A DNA stretch of 5,448 nt from Candidatus Zhuqueibacterota bacterium (GTDB taxonomy: Bacteria; SM23-31). Position numbers and translations under genes: made by a program. The DNA is taken from assembly GCA_022562855.1 (NCBI GenBank), contig JADFON010000159.1, forward strand, positions 1 to 5,448. Direction: 5' to 3'. Of this stretch, positions 1 through 5,448 are shown piece after piece (within the stretch, counting starts at the first letter, position 1; every line of letters begins with the position of its first letter). The notes beneath the pieces were generated by a model. That model saw only the letters and a program-made list of their open reading frames with translations, made no database searches and had not been told where the DNA came from.

Positions 1-215
1 ATAACTTCATTTTTGTAAACACTTTTAATTATAAGCCGGGTGAAGGATATTTGATTGAGGTATTCGATGCCGACCGGAGAGAGTACCGCAGTTCGTTTTA
101 TATCCCATTTGATAATTACACGATAAAAAACAGGATGTTATATCATCTGAAAACAAGCCGGAACGACTTTCCGGTAATTGAAGTGTTTTCAATCAATCCG
201 AAGGTTTACCACTGA
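1..215 (+). CDS. C-terminal fragment of an unknown protein, possibly a beta-propeller blade
   Basis: An open frame enters from the left edge (first complete codon at position 3) and stops at TGA 213-215, giving 70 residues of a C-terminus. It has no start in the window. The fragment alternates hydrophobic and polar residues like beta strands. It includes GYLIEVFDADRREYRSSFYI followed by a short strand (RMLYHL) and a closing strand (FPVIEVFSI). That layout, with a 'VFD' strand, a turn and a final 'P-V-I-x-V' strand, resembles the last blade of NHL or 6-bladed beta-propeller proteins. This is pattern recall, not a search, so function is left open. The gene is convergent with csrA and 81 bp from its stop, so it probably belongs to a separate transcription unit. 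Coding status is fairly sure because the frame stays open while the other two plus frames are interrupted within it. Confidence 0.55.
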   Translation, partial: NFIFVNTFNYKPGEGYLIEVFDADRREYRSSFYIPFDNYTIKNRMLYHLKTSRNDFPVIEVFSINPKVYH

Positions 216-273: not shown

Positions 274-346
274 GGAGGAGTAAGCAATGAAAAATACTAT
301 TTATCTGAGGCTTTCTTCTTTTTCCAGTTGTTGGCAATTGTTTTGA
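274..346 (+). other. Strong Shine-Dalgarno plus ATG leading to a 19-codon frame, possible gene stub
   Basis: GGAGGAG at 274-280 lies 6 nt before an ATG at 287-289, the best Shine-Dalgarno spacing in the window. The frame reads [19 protein letters not shown] and stops at TGA 344-346. From 297 on it is antisense to the 3' end of csrA, so most of the peptide is the complement of csrA coding sequence. It could be a genuine micro-ORF, the remnant start of a plus-strand gene whose body is missing, or a chance match. It follows the upstream plus-strand gene by 71 bp, a spacing that would suit a second gene of the same operon. I see no family in the peptide. Confidence 0.25.
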
Positions 347-542
347 GGTCGAGGGTTGATGTTTTTGCCGCCTGGCGGTTTTCTTCTAAAATCTTGATAT
401 AAATTTCTTCACGGTGTACAATCACATCACGGGGGGCTTCGATACCGAGACGCACCTGTCCGCCGTCCATGTTGATTATGGTCACTTTTATGTTGTTCCC
501 GATATTGATGCTCTCGCCGACTTTTCTGGTTAATACTAACAT
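297..542 (-). CDS. csrA: CsrA post-transcriptional regulator with extended C-terminus
   Basis: CsrA is a small dimeric RNA-binding protein that binds GGA motifs in mRNA leaders and usually blocks translation; in FliW-containing bacteria its main target is flagellin mRNA. The 81-residue product carries the family hallmarks in order: MLVLTRK at 1-7, VRLGIEAP at 30-37, and VHREEIY at 42-48 with the conserved RNA-contacting Arg44. It is longer than the roughly 61-residue proteobacterial form. The tail after residue 50 matches the extension seen in B. subtilis CsrA, including EEN at 53-55; Asn55 is, as I recall, a FliW-interaction position there. The last residues are lysine-rich (KKKK at 74-77). 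It lies 18 bp downstream of fliW, almost certainly in the same operon. The start is fixed by AAGGAAGGA upstream of ATG 542-540. Its ribosome binding site itself looks like a CsrA target. Confidence 0.97.
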
Positions 543-560: not shown

Positions 561-998
561 TTAATCTCTTATAAAATCATGACTCGTTAAATAGCGTTCG
601 TCCGCTAAGACGATCTGCTGTCCTAACCGTTTCTTCTGGTTGATAATTATTGGACCCTTCAGATTTGCCGACGCTCTTTTGAATTCCGGACGAATGGTCA
701 CGATCGCATACATCAGCAAATCTCTATCTTCAAATTCCCCGATATTATATGCTTCCGCTTTTGAAATTTTCGGTTCATAATCTTCAAGAACGAGGATCGG
801 GCTGATAATCGGAAAGCTGATATCCGGGTCGTCAATACTAAGCAGCCATTGAAACGGTTCATATTCAGGAAGATTGATTATCGCAAATTGGATGAGATCT
901 TCAAATCCGATCAATCCTTCCGGAAATGTGGTGATTTTATCCGGGTCAATGGTAAGATTGCCAAGCTGGGAATTGGTAACAGTGAATGTTTTACTCAT
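561..998 (-). CDS. fliW: FliW, flagellar assembly factor and CsrA antagonist
   Basis: FliW binds CsrA and relieves its repression of flagellin translation. Free flagellin sequesters FliW, so flagellin synthesis follows export (the partner switch described in B. subtilis). The 145-residue product is the usual family length and shows the family signatures: FPEGLIGFED at 25-34, PFQWLLSIDDPDISFPI at 48-64, and ANLKGPIIINQKKRLGQQIV at 111-130. It is encoded just upstream of csrA, the classic pairing. ATG 998-996 is chosen because it is the only Met near the conserved N-terminus. It has no Shine-Dalgarno sequence and is preceded by an almost pure U leader. The gene is separated from flgL by 124 bp, unlike the roughly 20 bp gaps elsewhere in the cluster, so fliW-csrA may be regulated separately from flgKL. 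Confidence 0.95.
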   Translation of the reverse strand: MSKTFTVTNSQLGNLTIDPDKITTFPEGLIGFEDLIQFAIINLPEYEPFQWLLSIDDPDISFPIISPILVLEDYEPKISKAEAYNIGEFEDRDLLMYAIVTIRPEFKRASANLKGPIIINQKKRLGQQIVLADERYLTSHDFIRD

Positions 999-1122: not shown

Positions 1123-2046
1123 TTATACTACTCCAAGGAAATCGAGCAAGCTTGGAGCGATCACCCTGGCGCCGGCGCTGAGTGCGGAATTAAGTGCGTT
1201 TTCCTCTGCTTTAAAATTGACAAAAGTAGTGGCAAAATCGGTGTCCTCGAGATTGGATAAAGCTGCCCTGACTTCAATATTTTGTGTAATAAACCTGTCG
1301 TCGTTGAATTGGACAAGCTGTTTACGCGTACCGATTTTCAGAAATGACTTTAGAATCTGTTCTATCGAAATTGATACATCCTCTATTTTCCCGTTTATTG
1401 CAGTAGTATCGTCTTCTATCATAAATTTTTTCAAATCAAAAATCATCTGGAATATGTCAACGCCACCACCGGCTGATTGGTCGAATACTTCTAATCCTGT
1501 CACGTTCACCGCAATAGTCGTCTGCTCGTTGATTTTCCGGTTAATTTTACCGTTGTTACCCCGGTATTCGACAATCTTGTCATCAAGTGAGAATCTCAAT
1601 ACGTTTTCATTCAGTGTAAACGGTTTATTCAGTGTTTCGGTACCCCCAAATATGTATTTTCCGTTGAATTTGGAATTCGCTATTTCCAGCAAATTATCGA
1701 GTGTAAACTGCAACTGCTCTGCAATGCTGCTCCGAACTGTTATCGTATCCGATGCGCCTTCCAAAGTCAATTCCTTTACCTGAATGAGAACATCATAAAT
1801 CTGGTTAAGCGCTTCTTCCTGAACAGAAAGCTGCGTAATACTATCTTGTATATTATTCTGAAATTGGAAATTGCTTTCCAATATCGACCGGAGTTTCATC
1901 GCATTCGACATTGCCTCCGGGTCATCAGAGGGTCTGTTTATTCTTTTGCCGGTCGCCAATTGCTCTTGCAAATCATTCATTCTTTCCCGGCTTCTATTCA
2001 GGTTAGAGATAACGGTTCTATACCGGAATGTGTCAGTTATTCTCAT
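1123..2046 (-). CDS. flgL: FlgL, hook-filament junction protein (HAP3)
   Basis: FlgL is the second junction protein, exported through the flagellar type III apparatus and placed between FlgK and the flagellin filament. The 307-residue product has the flagellin-like N-terminal helical region, with MRITDTFRYR at 1-10 and the signature ATGKRINRPSDDPEAM at 31-46, and the flagellin-type C-terminal helix ending ALNSALSAGARVIAPSLLDF. A variable middle region rich in Asn and Ile lies between them, as usual for HAP3, and total length is normal. The gene starts 23 bp after flgK, with a weak AGGAA about 10 nt before ATG 2046-2044. It is probably cotranscribed with flgN and flgK, and FlgN is the expected chaperone of its C-terminus. 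Nothing is truncated or unusual. Confidence 0.96.
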   Translation of the reverse strand: MRITDTFRYRTVISNLNRSRERMNDLQEQLATGKRINRPSDDPEAMSNAMKLRSILESNFQFQNNIQDSITQLSVQEEALNQIYDVLIQVKELTLEGASDTITVRSSIAEQLQFTLDNLLEIANSKFNGKYIFGGTETLNKPFTLNENVLRFSLDDKIVEYRGNNGKINRKINEQTTIAVNVTGLEVFDQSAGGGVDIFQMIFDLKKFMIEDDTTAINGKIEDVSISIEQILKSFLKIGTRKQLVQFNDDRFITQNIEVRAALSNLEDTDFATTFVNFKAEENALNSALSAGARVIAPSLLDFLGVV

Positions 2047-2069: not shown

Positions 2070-3503
2070 TTACATATTAATCAAGGTTTCGAACATCTGA
2101 TCGACTGTCGTAATGATCTTTGCACCTGCCTGGAAACCTCGCTGAAACTTTATCAAATTGATGAATTCCTCGTCAAGGCTTACACCCGAAACAGAGTCTC
2201 TGAAATTCTTAAATTGCTGTATTAACAGATCTTCATTAGTAACATTATCGTGAGCTTTTTTGGCTTCTATTCCGATTTCACTTACAATTTCATTAAATGA
2301 GTCTAATAAGGATTTCGTCCCTTTAGCCAGTATTAGAGCTTGTTTGAGGTCTGCAATTTGTATTGCAATATTATTGTCTCCCGGCGATCCGGTTGTTTTT
2401 ACCTCACCATTCTCTTGTAGAATATCTATTCTTGAAGCCGCGGCGATATTTGCCACATCGGCTTTTATTGCAAAGGAGATATTTATATTACTCGAGCTGT
2501 CACCTTCAAAAAAATCGTTATCTTTCGGAATTTCAGAGGAATTTCCCTGCAGCCCCACTCCGGCGCGGTGAACGTTGTTTACGCGGTCAATGATATTTTT
2601 TGCTAAACTGTCAAACAAATCCCGAAAATGCGGAATAATTACATTTCTCGCTTCAAGCATGCCGGCTAATTTACCGTTTTTAACAGTGAATTTCTTCCGG
2701 TTATTCTTTACGATAATATCCGATTTTAGATTCCCTTTGTCGTTTCGAACCTGCACCTCAAGCTCAAGTGGAAAGTTGGATGAGACAAGGGTTTGTTCTG
2801 AAGCTGCAACGTCGACTATACCATTGCGTTTTTCAAGCGCAAATATATCCAGCAATTCCGACAAATCATCCAGCGCTCTATCACGTTCATCCCGCAGATC
2901 GTTTGCCGTGCCTTTTGCAGTACCTTCGAGAGAAACAATTTGCGAATTCAATTTTGCGACTTGTCCGCTCAATCTATTCAAATTCTCTACACCTCGGCGA
3001 AGCTCGAAATCTATATCGTCACTCAGTACCCTCAACTGTTTATCCAGACGGTGAAACGCCTCAGACAATAGATTGCCGGATTCTCTTAAATTAAACCGTG
3101 TAGTGGCATTTTCGGGGTCGTTAGCCAAATTATGAAAATTATCAAAAAAACGGGACATTAATGACCTGAGACCTGTATCGGAAGGCTCGTTGATTGTGGT
3201 TTCAAGCTGGTTGTATATCCGCTCCAGAATATCGTTTCTTCCTTTTGAGTGCATTTCATTTCTGAGCTGTCTGTCGACCAGATTGTCACGGATACGGCGA
3301 ACGCCATCTATCTTCACACCCGTTCCAAATATACCTTCCGATGTGGTAATCGGGATATCGGAAACAATGGATACTTCCTGCCTGCTGTAAGACGGCGTGT
3401 TTACATTGGCGATATTGTTGGCGGTCACGTTCAAACCGGCAAGCTGTGCCCTGAGAGTCTTCCTCCCTATATCAAGCGCCGATCTTATACCAAATCCACT
3501 CAT
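2070..3503 (-). CDS. flgK: FlgK, hook-associated protein 1 (HAP1)
   Basis: FlgK forms the first ring of the junction between the hook and the filament, and is exported by the flagellar secretion system with help from FlgN. The 477-residue product carries the rod/hook/HAP N-terminal signature: LNVTANNIANVNTPSYSRQ at 24-42, following an amphipathic helix. It also has the matching C-terminal helix SLDEEFINLIKFQRGFQAGA beginning near residue 442 and ending QMFETLINM. A long helical segment around residues 85-220 and a beta-rich central region fit the family. At 477 residues it lies toward the short end of HAP1 sizes. The start is ATG 3503-3501, fixed by the N-terminal motif. No Shine-Dalgarno sequence precedes it, and it begins 20 bp after flgN, which suggests translational coupling. 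Confidence 0.97.
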   Translation of the reverse strand: MSGFGIRSALDIGRKTLRAQLAGLNVTANNIANVNTPSYSRQEVSIVSDIPITTSEGIFGTGVKIDGVRRIRDNLVDRQLRNEMHSKGRNDILERIYNQLETTINEPSDTGLRSLMSRFFDNFHNLANDPENATTRFNLRESGNLLSEAFHRLDKQLRVLSDDIDFELRRGVENLNRLSGQVAKLNSQIVSLEGTAKGTANDLRDERDRALDDLSELLDIFALEKRNGIVDVAASEQTLVSSNFPLELEVQVRNDKGNLKSDIIVKNNRKKFTVKNGKLAGMLEARNVIIPHFRDLFDSLAKNIIDRVNNVHRAGVGLQGNSSEIPKDNDFFEGDSSSNINISFAIKADVANIAAASRIDILQENGEVKTTGSPGDNNIAIQIADLKQALILAKGTKSLLDSFNEIVSEIGIEAKKAHDNVTNEDLLIQQFKNFRDSVSGVSLDEEFINLIKFQRGFQAGAKIITTVDQMFETLINM

Positions 3504-3523: not shown

Positions 3524-4036
3524 TTAAGCCTTCCAGTCAACCAGGCTGGCTGTTTGTGCCCCCGGTTTTCCCGTGTTAGTTAAGGGTGTATATAGACCTT
3601 TATCTTCCATCGCACCAAAAAACACCTGGATGTTTTTGTCAAAAAATTGCAGGGACCGGTTTATCAGGAATTTATTGCTTTTATTGAGATTTAATATTTC
3701 CTGAATAACCGATTTGAATTTTGTCTCAAGGCTGGTCAGTTCCTTTGCAAGTTCATTATTTACTCTTTGAGCAATCATAGCTATCTTGAGAAATTCGGGA
3801 GATTCGCCAAGATAAATACCGATTACATCCAGCTCCTGTAACCTCTTTTCTTCGAGCTTATTAATCGATGACATAATAGCCTGCTGTTCCAAAAGGTTTT
3901 TGTCCAGACCTTCAATGTCGATATTGACAAGAACGCTTTGTTCCTTTTTAACCAATTCATAAATATGTTTGTAGAGTTCGTATTCCTTTGTCAGGATAAC
4001 CATCAAATTACGAACATGTTTTTCTTGTGATTCCAT
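3524..4036 (-). CDS. flgN: FlgN, export chaperone for FlgK and FlgL
   Basis: FlgN-family proteins are cytoplasmic helical chaperones that bind the C-terminal helices of FlgK and FlgL and deliver them to the flagellar export gate. The 170-residue product is almost entirely predicted helix, with heptad-like spacing of Leu and Ile through about residue 135 (for example LVKKEQSVLVNIDIEGLDKN and LNLNKSNKFLINRSLQFFDK). A flexible tail, YTPLTNTGKPGAQTASLVDW, follows and resembles the Tyr-Gly-Pro rich end common in FlgN proteins. Sequence conservation in this family is low, so the call rests on length, helical pattern, the tail and the position directly upstream of flgK, as in many flagellar operons. 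ATG 4036-4034 has no good Shine-Dalgarno sequence; Met12 is a possible internal start but has none either. Confidence 0.88.
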   Translation of the reverse strand: MESQEKHVRNLMVILTKEYELYKHIYELVKKEQSVLVNIDIEGLDKNLLEQQAIMSSINKLEEKRLQELDVIGIYLGESPEFLKIAMIAQRVNNELAKELTSLETKFKSVIQEILNLNKSNKFLINRSLQFFDKNIQVFFGAMEDKGLYTPLTNTGKPGAQTASLVDWKA

Positions 4037-4131: not shown

Positions 4132-4917
4132 TTAAATTCTTTCACCGCTTCTGAACTGCTTTTGTAATTTCACCACTTTTTGAACATAGTTCTTTGTTTC
4201 TGAATAAGGCGGTATTCCGTTATACAGCTTAACCGCCCCGGGTCCGGCATTATATGACGCCAGCGCAAGTTTCAAATCACCTTTATGTTCTTTTAACTGG
4301 TTTTTCAAGTATTGAGCGCCTGCAAAAATATTTTCTCTCGGATTAAACACGTCTTTTACTCCAAGTTCCGCAGCCGTGCCATCCATTAATTGCATCAGAC
4401 CCTTTGCGCCGCTTTTTGAAACAGCATTTGGGTCCCCCCGGCTTTCCTGAACGATAACTGCTTTTAACAAATCGGGATCAATTTCATATTTTGCCGCTGC
4501 TTCATTAATCAAAGGCAGCAGTTGTTCGATACGGTCTCCTACCGTCATGCTTTTTGTATTTGAATCGGGAGAATTGACTTTTTCAATCTTAAATAGTTTC
4601 GGCTCTTCAGCCTCATTCGTTTCTTCGATCTTGTATTCATTACGGTTTTCCAAATAGTCGATTAGCATGTCGCTGAGACCGAATTTCTGGCTTGTGGCGA
4701 TCCTGTTTGCCATCTTCTCGTCAAGCATAGAGGTAAAAATATCCATACCAAAACTTTCGCTCATTAAAGAGCTTTTTGGGACTGTTTTTCTCATTTCCTG
4801 GAGCATTCGTAAAATAAAAAGCGACTCAAAACCTTGAGCAGCTTCCTTTATACCTTCTTTTCCTTTGATACCTTTCAAATTTTCAAGAGCTGTATTTGGT
4901 GCGGCAACGAGTGTCAT
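4132..4917 (-). other. flgJ: Probable native flgJ/SLT portion if the upstream join is artificial
   Basis: ATG 4917-4915 lies just before the FlgJ-type region and would give a 261-residue protein (MTLVAAPNTALENLKG at its N-terminus) with the rod-binding domain near residues 25-89 and SLT near 132-252. That is a sensible size for a stand-alone FlgJ-transglycosylase. Only a purine stretch (AAAAGAAGAAAAAAAT) precedes it, so ribosome binding is uncertain. The exact point where the foreign-looking N-terminal half ends cannot be read from this sequence; it lies somewhere in the low-complexity linker, about 4850-5055. Confidence 0.4.
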
Positions 4918-5448
4918 ATTTTTTTCTTCTTTTACTACTTGCTCCGATGGAGATACTTGTTTTGACTCCGGAGCAACCACTTTCCCAACAATCGATACTG
5001 ATTTTTCCGTATTCTCAACAATTTCTTCCGGAAATATTTGTACAAATACTTGCGGTAGCACAACGCTTCCATTTGGATATTTTAAAATTGCTTTGTCCTT
5101 TTCTTGGGCATTGAGTCCTGTTACTTTAGAAGAAAACTTAACGGATACATTCGGAAGAATGATGGTGTGTCCAGGAATAGTAAAATAAGAGCCGTTCACT
5201 TCAACTATCCACCACGATATATCCAACTCTCGATTTCCACTATTTGAAAGTGTAATAAATTCAGGGTTTGTCTCTGAAATTACAATATCTGCAGGAAGCG
5301 CCTTTACTATTATTCTGTCTGAAGTTGAATACTCGCCAGAGGAAACTTCAAGAATGACGACATACTCTCCGGGATATGTGTAGTGATGGAGTACCCGGTT
5401 TCCTTCTCGCCTTGAGCCGTCTCCAAAACTCCACAAAAATCGAGCTCC
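4132..5448 (-). CDS. flgJ: PKD-LTD / FlgJ rod-binding / SLT lytic transglycosylase fusion, 5' truncated
   Basis: The frame is open to the right edge; the four codons before TTG 5436-5434 encode GARF and continue the PKD domain, so the TTG is not the real start. Counted from that TTG codon, residues 1-47 are the end of a PKD domain (WSFGDGS, HHYTYPGEYVV). Residues 50-127 resemble a lamin-tail-like domain (ITLSNSGNRELDISWW, TIILPN, KYPNGSV). Residues 128-195 are a linker. Residues 198-262 are the FlgJ rod-binding domain (AAQGFESLFILRMLQEMR). Residues 305-425 are an SLT domain with catalytic Glu331 in QESRGDPNA, then GLMQLM and YNAGPGAV. The last two parts make a FlgJ that caps the rod and cuts peptidoglycan; enterobacterial FlgJ uses a glucosaminidase domain instead. 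The PKD/LTD half has no known place in FlgJ and looks foreign. The gene symbol applies to the C-terminal part only. The stop is TAA at 4134-4132. Confidence 0.85.
   Translation of the reverse strand, partial: GARFLWSFGDGSRREGNRVLHHYTYPGEYVVILEVSSGEYSTSDRIIVKALPADIVISETNPEFITLSNSGNRELDISWWIVEVNGSYFTIPGHTIILPNVSVKFSSKVTGLNAQEKDKAILKYPNGSVVLPQVFVQIFPEEIVENTEKSVSIVGKVVAPESKQVSPSEQVVKEEKNMTLVAAPNTALENLKGIKGKEGIKEAAQGFESLFILRMLQEMRKTVPKSSLMSESFGMDIFTSMLDEKMANRIATSQKFGLSDMLIDYLENRNEYKIEETNEAEEPKLFKIEKVNSPDSNTKSMTVGDRIEQLLPLINEAAAKYEIDPDLLKAVIVQESRGDPNAVSKSGAKGLMQLMDGTAAELGVKDVFNPRENIFAGAQYLKNQLKEHKGDLKLALASYNAGPGAVKLYNGIPPYSETKNYVQKVVKLQKQFRSGERI

Follow-up and report, generated by a model that had tools for sequence, protein, structure and literature searches.

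The contig analyzed here encodes, at one of its ends, an open frame that passes without interruption from domains typical of surface proteins into a flagellar FlgJ transglycosylase. This arrangement raises the question of whether the frame represents a FlgJ protein with a large surface-type N-terminus or a contig that joins DNA from two genomes. The window under analysis is the whole of contig C165 (5,448 bases), which belongs to a bin (G000) of 2.51 Mb distributed over 491 contigs, with an estimated completeness of 79.6% and contamination of 2.5%.

Domain organization of the open frame

A stop-free frame of 438 codons (5448..4132, minus strand) runs off the right end of the contig and has no upstream limit within it. 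Read from its start, the frame contains the second half of a PKD domain, an LTD-like domain, a linker, a Rod-binding (FlgJ) domain and an SLT domain, all on the minus strand. The PKD domain spans approximately residues 2-43 (window positions 5320-5445), with a PKD_4 match at residues 3-39 that scores 32 bits against a Pfam cut-off of 27. The LTD match at residues 52-130 (5059-5295) scores 24.7 bits, under the Pfam cut-off of 34.3, and the call is supported by homologs, in which the first LTD reaches 74-76 bits and one of which presents two LTD stretches. A low-complexity linker (4897-5058) leads into the Rod-binding domain (PF10135; residues 217-263, 4660-4800) and the SLT lytic transglycosylase domain (PF01464; residues 313-417, 4198-4512), which at 51 and 105 bits, respectively, both lie over the Pfam cut-off. 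The SLT motifs ES, GLMQ and YNAG are found in the translated FlgJ half. The frame and the Pfam matches therefore confirm the description given in the first-pass annotation, which had reported one unbroken frame leading from a PKD end, across an LTD-like domain and then a linker, to FlgJ and SLT domains. The openness of the 438-codon frame is a fact; that it constitutes a single gene is not supported by the evidence presented below.

The FlgJ half lies in a conserved flagellar operon

The FlgJ half of the frame (4132..4896, minus strand) is identified by its Pfam domains and by its identity to the stand-alone FlgJ proteins of two genomes from the same family (63% to G001 over residues 187-438 and 54% to G002 over residues 183-438), and presents 46-47% identity to the FlgJ of two genomes from the same class (G003 and G004). 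When used as query against GTDB genome contigs, FlgJ yielded relatives at the level of the SLT domain only. In all four relatives harboring the locus (G001-G004), flgJ is a stand-alone gene of 272-290 codons located directly behind flgI. Downstream of flgJ, the genes flgN and flgK, then flgL, fliW and csrA, follow in G001, G002 and G004, and the G003 contig stops shortly past flgJ. The minus strand of the window encodes the flagellar chaperone FlgN (3524..4036; Pfam FlgN, 75 bits), in the same order as in G001, G002 and G004, the hook-associated protein 1 FlgK (2070..3503; FlgK_D1, 171 bits), a FlgL-type hook-associated protein 3 (1123..2046; Flagellin_N, 78 bits), the FlgL name of which derives from its position behind FlgK, FliW (561..998; FliW, 119 bits) and CsrA (297..542; CsrA, 85 bits). 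Since the relatives share both the flgJ layout and the gene order, the region from position 1 to about 4890 can be considered an ordinary flagellar operon of the host lineage. At the other end of the contig, a 70-codon C-terminal frame without Pfam match (window 3-215, plus strand) is convergent with csrA; the frames matching it in position look different in G001, G002 and G004, and this contig end is without synteny support.

In the classical dual-domain FlgJ of Salmonella enterica and Escherichia coli, the hydrolase is a glucosaminidase. At window positions 4132-4896, as in the four related genomes (L004, L005, L006, L007), the rod-binding domain and an SLT transglycosylase are combined in one protein rather than split into two. 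This resembles the classical protein (PMC8517470) in the succession of a rod-binding and a lytic domain, but the lytic domain there belongs to another hydrolase family, whereas here it is SLT, in an operon ordered flgJ-flgN-flgK-flgL-fliW-csrA. The SLT layout is common to the four relatives, whereas the PKD-LTD extension upstream of it is foreign.

On the upstream side of flgJ, the PKD-LTD sequence occupies the usual place of flgI in G000, while flgN and flgK are located downstream of flgJ as expected. With the FlgI of G001 as query, strong matches (E 1e-83 or better) were obtained in four relatives and no match was obtained in G000, a bin that is approximately 80% complete and in which 17 of the first 20 contigs appear as N throughout (C1-C6, C8-C15 and C18-C20, corresponding to L119-L124, L126-L133 and L136-L138; about 2.3 kb each). 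These all-N contigs create possible blind spots in searches of G000 and hence weaken the absence of flgI; with a completeness of 80%, that absence taken alone is weak evidence for a chimeric contig. A search for FlgH, run without a positive control, returned none in G000. As assembled, flgJ is without its expected site between flgI and flgN/flgK, a mismatch that is explained by a chimeric contig.

The PKD-LTD half matches small, CPR-type genomes

The PKD-LTD half yielded no matches in the five nearest genomes (G001-G005), even at an E-value of 0.1. Against 386 genomes sampled across the domain, three genomes besides G000 presented a match at 1e-6, two of which were short and restricted to the PKD region of long frames in 4-Mb genomes. 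The sole match over both domains in this set corresponded to G204, a genome of 0.6 Mb rated as 100% complete. Matches were identified in 67 of the 105 genomes of its family and, at E<=1e-20, in 121 of the 397 genomes of its order, with a best identity of 55%, and the genomes harboring them are mostly 0.4-1.2 Mb in size. A search of families f342 and f285 for a closer CPR parent gave nothing above 55% identity. In a tree of the PKD-LTD region, the window falls inside the small-genome family f342 with moderate support (0.74), and linker motifs such as SIVGK are also present in this family. The same query returned no matches in phages and plasmids, and no confirmed relative among viral contigs.

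The ribosomal protein uL30 was absent in all 14 small genomes tested and present in G000, G001 and G002. CPR bacteria are known to have lost L30 (PMC6744442), and the small genomes can be assigned with high confidence to the CPR/Patescibacteria. The first-pass annotation had associated PKD-LTD pairs of this kind with CPR bacteria, which is consistent with these small, uL30-less relatives. Patescibacteria have been described as being without flagellar assembly genes (PMC7137472), and a search with the FlgJ half revealed no FlgJ or SLT relative in 34 of the 35 small genomes tested. The lone exception, G588, gave a match confined to the SLT part, within a frame of 191 codons; this genome (L159; 1.2 Mb) has 5% contamination, and its SLT match may be contamination. 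Searched separately, as had been proposed, the two halves therefore lead to different sources, the FlgJ half to the same-family genomes G001 and G002 and the PKD-LTD half to genomes of 0.4-1.2 Mb. In view of these results, it is barely conceivable that the PKD-LTD piece is native to the host or its phylum and was brought upstream of flgJ when the locus was rearranged, a stop codon or frameshift having been overlooked. PKD proteins do occur in many bacteria, some of the searched genomes included, but the five nearest genomes contain no relative of the PKD-LTD half even at the permissive threshold, and its close relatives sit in small genomes lacking uL30.

The CPR-type relatives share a common layout, with a signal-peptide-like start, an LTD, a PKD domain, a second LTD-like domain, a linker and a C-terminal transmembrane (TM) helix, the start and the helix having been judged by eye. 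The family is widespread in small CPR-type genomes (L053, L056-L114; e.g. L086:1300-2715 and L085:1120-2622, both on the minus strand), with a conserved SWW motif, a variable linker and usually one copy per genome. A literature search for papers naming the lamin tail domain and Patescibacteria together returned none, so the function of the LTD-PKD-LTD family looks unstudied. The window shares with these proteins the second half of the PKD domain, the second LTD-like domain with its SWW and YPNG motifs and the low-complexity linker, at no more than 55% identity, but is missing the signal peptide, the first LTD, the start of the PKD domain and the C-terminal TM helix. Because the contig ends inside the PKD domain and the frame turns into FlgJ before the TM helix, the foreign half (residues 1-184; 4897..5448, minus strand), which includes the linker, constitutes a fragment of a CPR/Patescibacteria-type LTD-PKD-LTD surface protein, as indicated by the Pfam matches, the genome matches, the tree and a CPR profile.

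Location of the junction

The CPR profile was built from the PKD-LTD proteins of the 0.4-1.2 Mb genomes, and a FlgJ profile from the four host relatives. For the CPR profile, the match covers residues 2-189 (226 bits) and extends to column 447 of 492, just short of the TM helix. For the FlgJ profile, it covers residues 185-438 (363 bits) from column 27 of 286 onward, the first 26 columns being missing. The two matches hence abut within about five residues, and the best estimate, derived from these sequence comparisons, places the join at 4882-4896 (residues 185-189). Since the linker match reflects composition in its final stretch, the join could reach up to residue 164 (window about 4959), and the junction interval was accordingly set at 4882..4959 on the minus strand, based on the comparison of the two profiles, the alignment of FlgJ with its relatives and the tails of CPR linkers. 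FlgJ may truly start at an in-frame ATG located at 4917-4915, in which case the join would lie just upstream of that ATG, or the true start could have been lost at the junction. The contig ends 550 bases beyond the join.

The composition of the two halves was also assessed. The PKD half has a GC3 of 0.30, within the lowest 2.5% of 199 gene segments of G000, and its codon use is closer to that of the small genomes than is the case for 97% of G000 segments. The GC3 of the PKD half differs from that of the rest of the operon with P = 3e-4, whereas the FlgJ half does not differ (P = 0.13); between the two halves, the difference does not reach significance by itself (P = 0.08), and the best change-point falls at residue 242, not 187. 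Codon use and GC3 weakly favor a chimeric contig.

Many CPR bacteria grow attached to other bacteria, which makes contact between a CPR bacterium and the host plausible, and the frame is unbroken, as would be expected if a fragment of a CPR surface-protein gene had been acquired horizontally, e.g. from an episymbiont, and inserted upstream of flgJ, giving rise to a FlgJ with an extracellular PKD-LTD N-terminus. Such an event, which would fuse host and symbiont genes in a protein of the flagellar rod, appears highly improbable. The extension is absent from the four relatives harboring the locus; flgI, without which the P ring cannot form, would have to have been lost or moved elsewhere; and a surface-anchored N-terminus is hard to square with the export of FlgJ through the flagellar apparatus that is seen in model species. 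Furthermore, the fragment breaks off at the boundary between the CPR linker and the TM helix and FlgJ is left without its N-terminal columns, while the foreign piece extends to the very end of a short contig.

Discussion

The results presented here strongly suggest that the contig is an inter-genome chimera, in which DNA from a very small, non-motile bacterium of CPR type has been joined to the flagellar operon of another bacterium, and that the frame does not correspond to a new protein. The two halves have separate parents, their homology boundaries abut, flgI is missing from its expected place and the order of the operon is conserved. From these observations we infer that the join is an artefact rather than the product of DNA transfer, and that the name CPR applies to the foreign parent. 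A chimera provides by far the best account because the separate parents abut, both are truncated at that point, the expected neighboring gene is lost, and the join is located in a short terminal contig of a fragmented bin. Some points run counter to this interpretation. No stop interrupts the frame at the join, although joining at random would give this result about one time in three, and a single parent clade is placed for the foreign half, with its nearest member 55% identical and neither parent seen across the join.

The first-pass annotation had considered both a contig joining CPR and flagellated genomes and an undescribed FlgJ with a surface-type N-terminus. The former is strongly supported by the different parents, the abutting matches and the missing flgI; the latter is not supported, as no relative has such an N-terminus. 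The mild preference for a real gene that had been drawn from the open frame finds no confirmation here. The same fusion, for which a search in other genomes had been suggested, was found neither in the five same-family and same-class genomes nor in the 35 small genomes tested.

Metagenome assembly is known to yield chimeric contigs (PMC7299287), and the present case is alike in that sequence from more than one genome is contained in one contig. That review, however, deals mainly with related species sharing k-mers, whereas the parents here are distant, which points to a chimera formed in amplification or library preparation, or to a brief fortuitous overlap. Positions 1 to approximately 4890 would correspond to the flgJ-flgN-flgK-flgL-fliW-csrA operon of the flagellated host bin, and approximately 4890 to 5448 to a piece of a gene for a membrane-anchored surface protein of the CPR/Patescibacteria LTD-PKD-LTD type, the join having presumably arisen in assembly or amplification and the absence of a stop in the frame being a coincidence. 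In the actual genome of the host, flgI would be followed by an ordinary flgJ, the product of which would combine a rod-binding domain with an SLT domain opening the peptidoglycan for the rod, and the PKD-LTD frame of the actual CPR genome would continue via the linker into a TM helix.

More generally, the lack of a stop across a join is weak evidence for a gene, and the abutment of profile boundaries, together with synteny, can expose a chimera without reads. It is advisable to divide the frame near 4882-4896 and to take the 550 bases at the 3' end out of the bin, since automatic annotation would otherwise call it a new flagellar fusion protein and evidence of gene transfer from CPR bacteria to the host.
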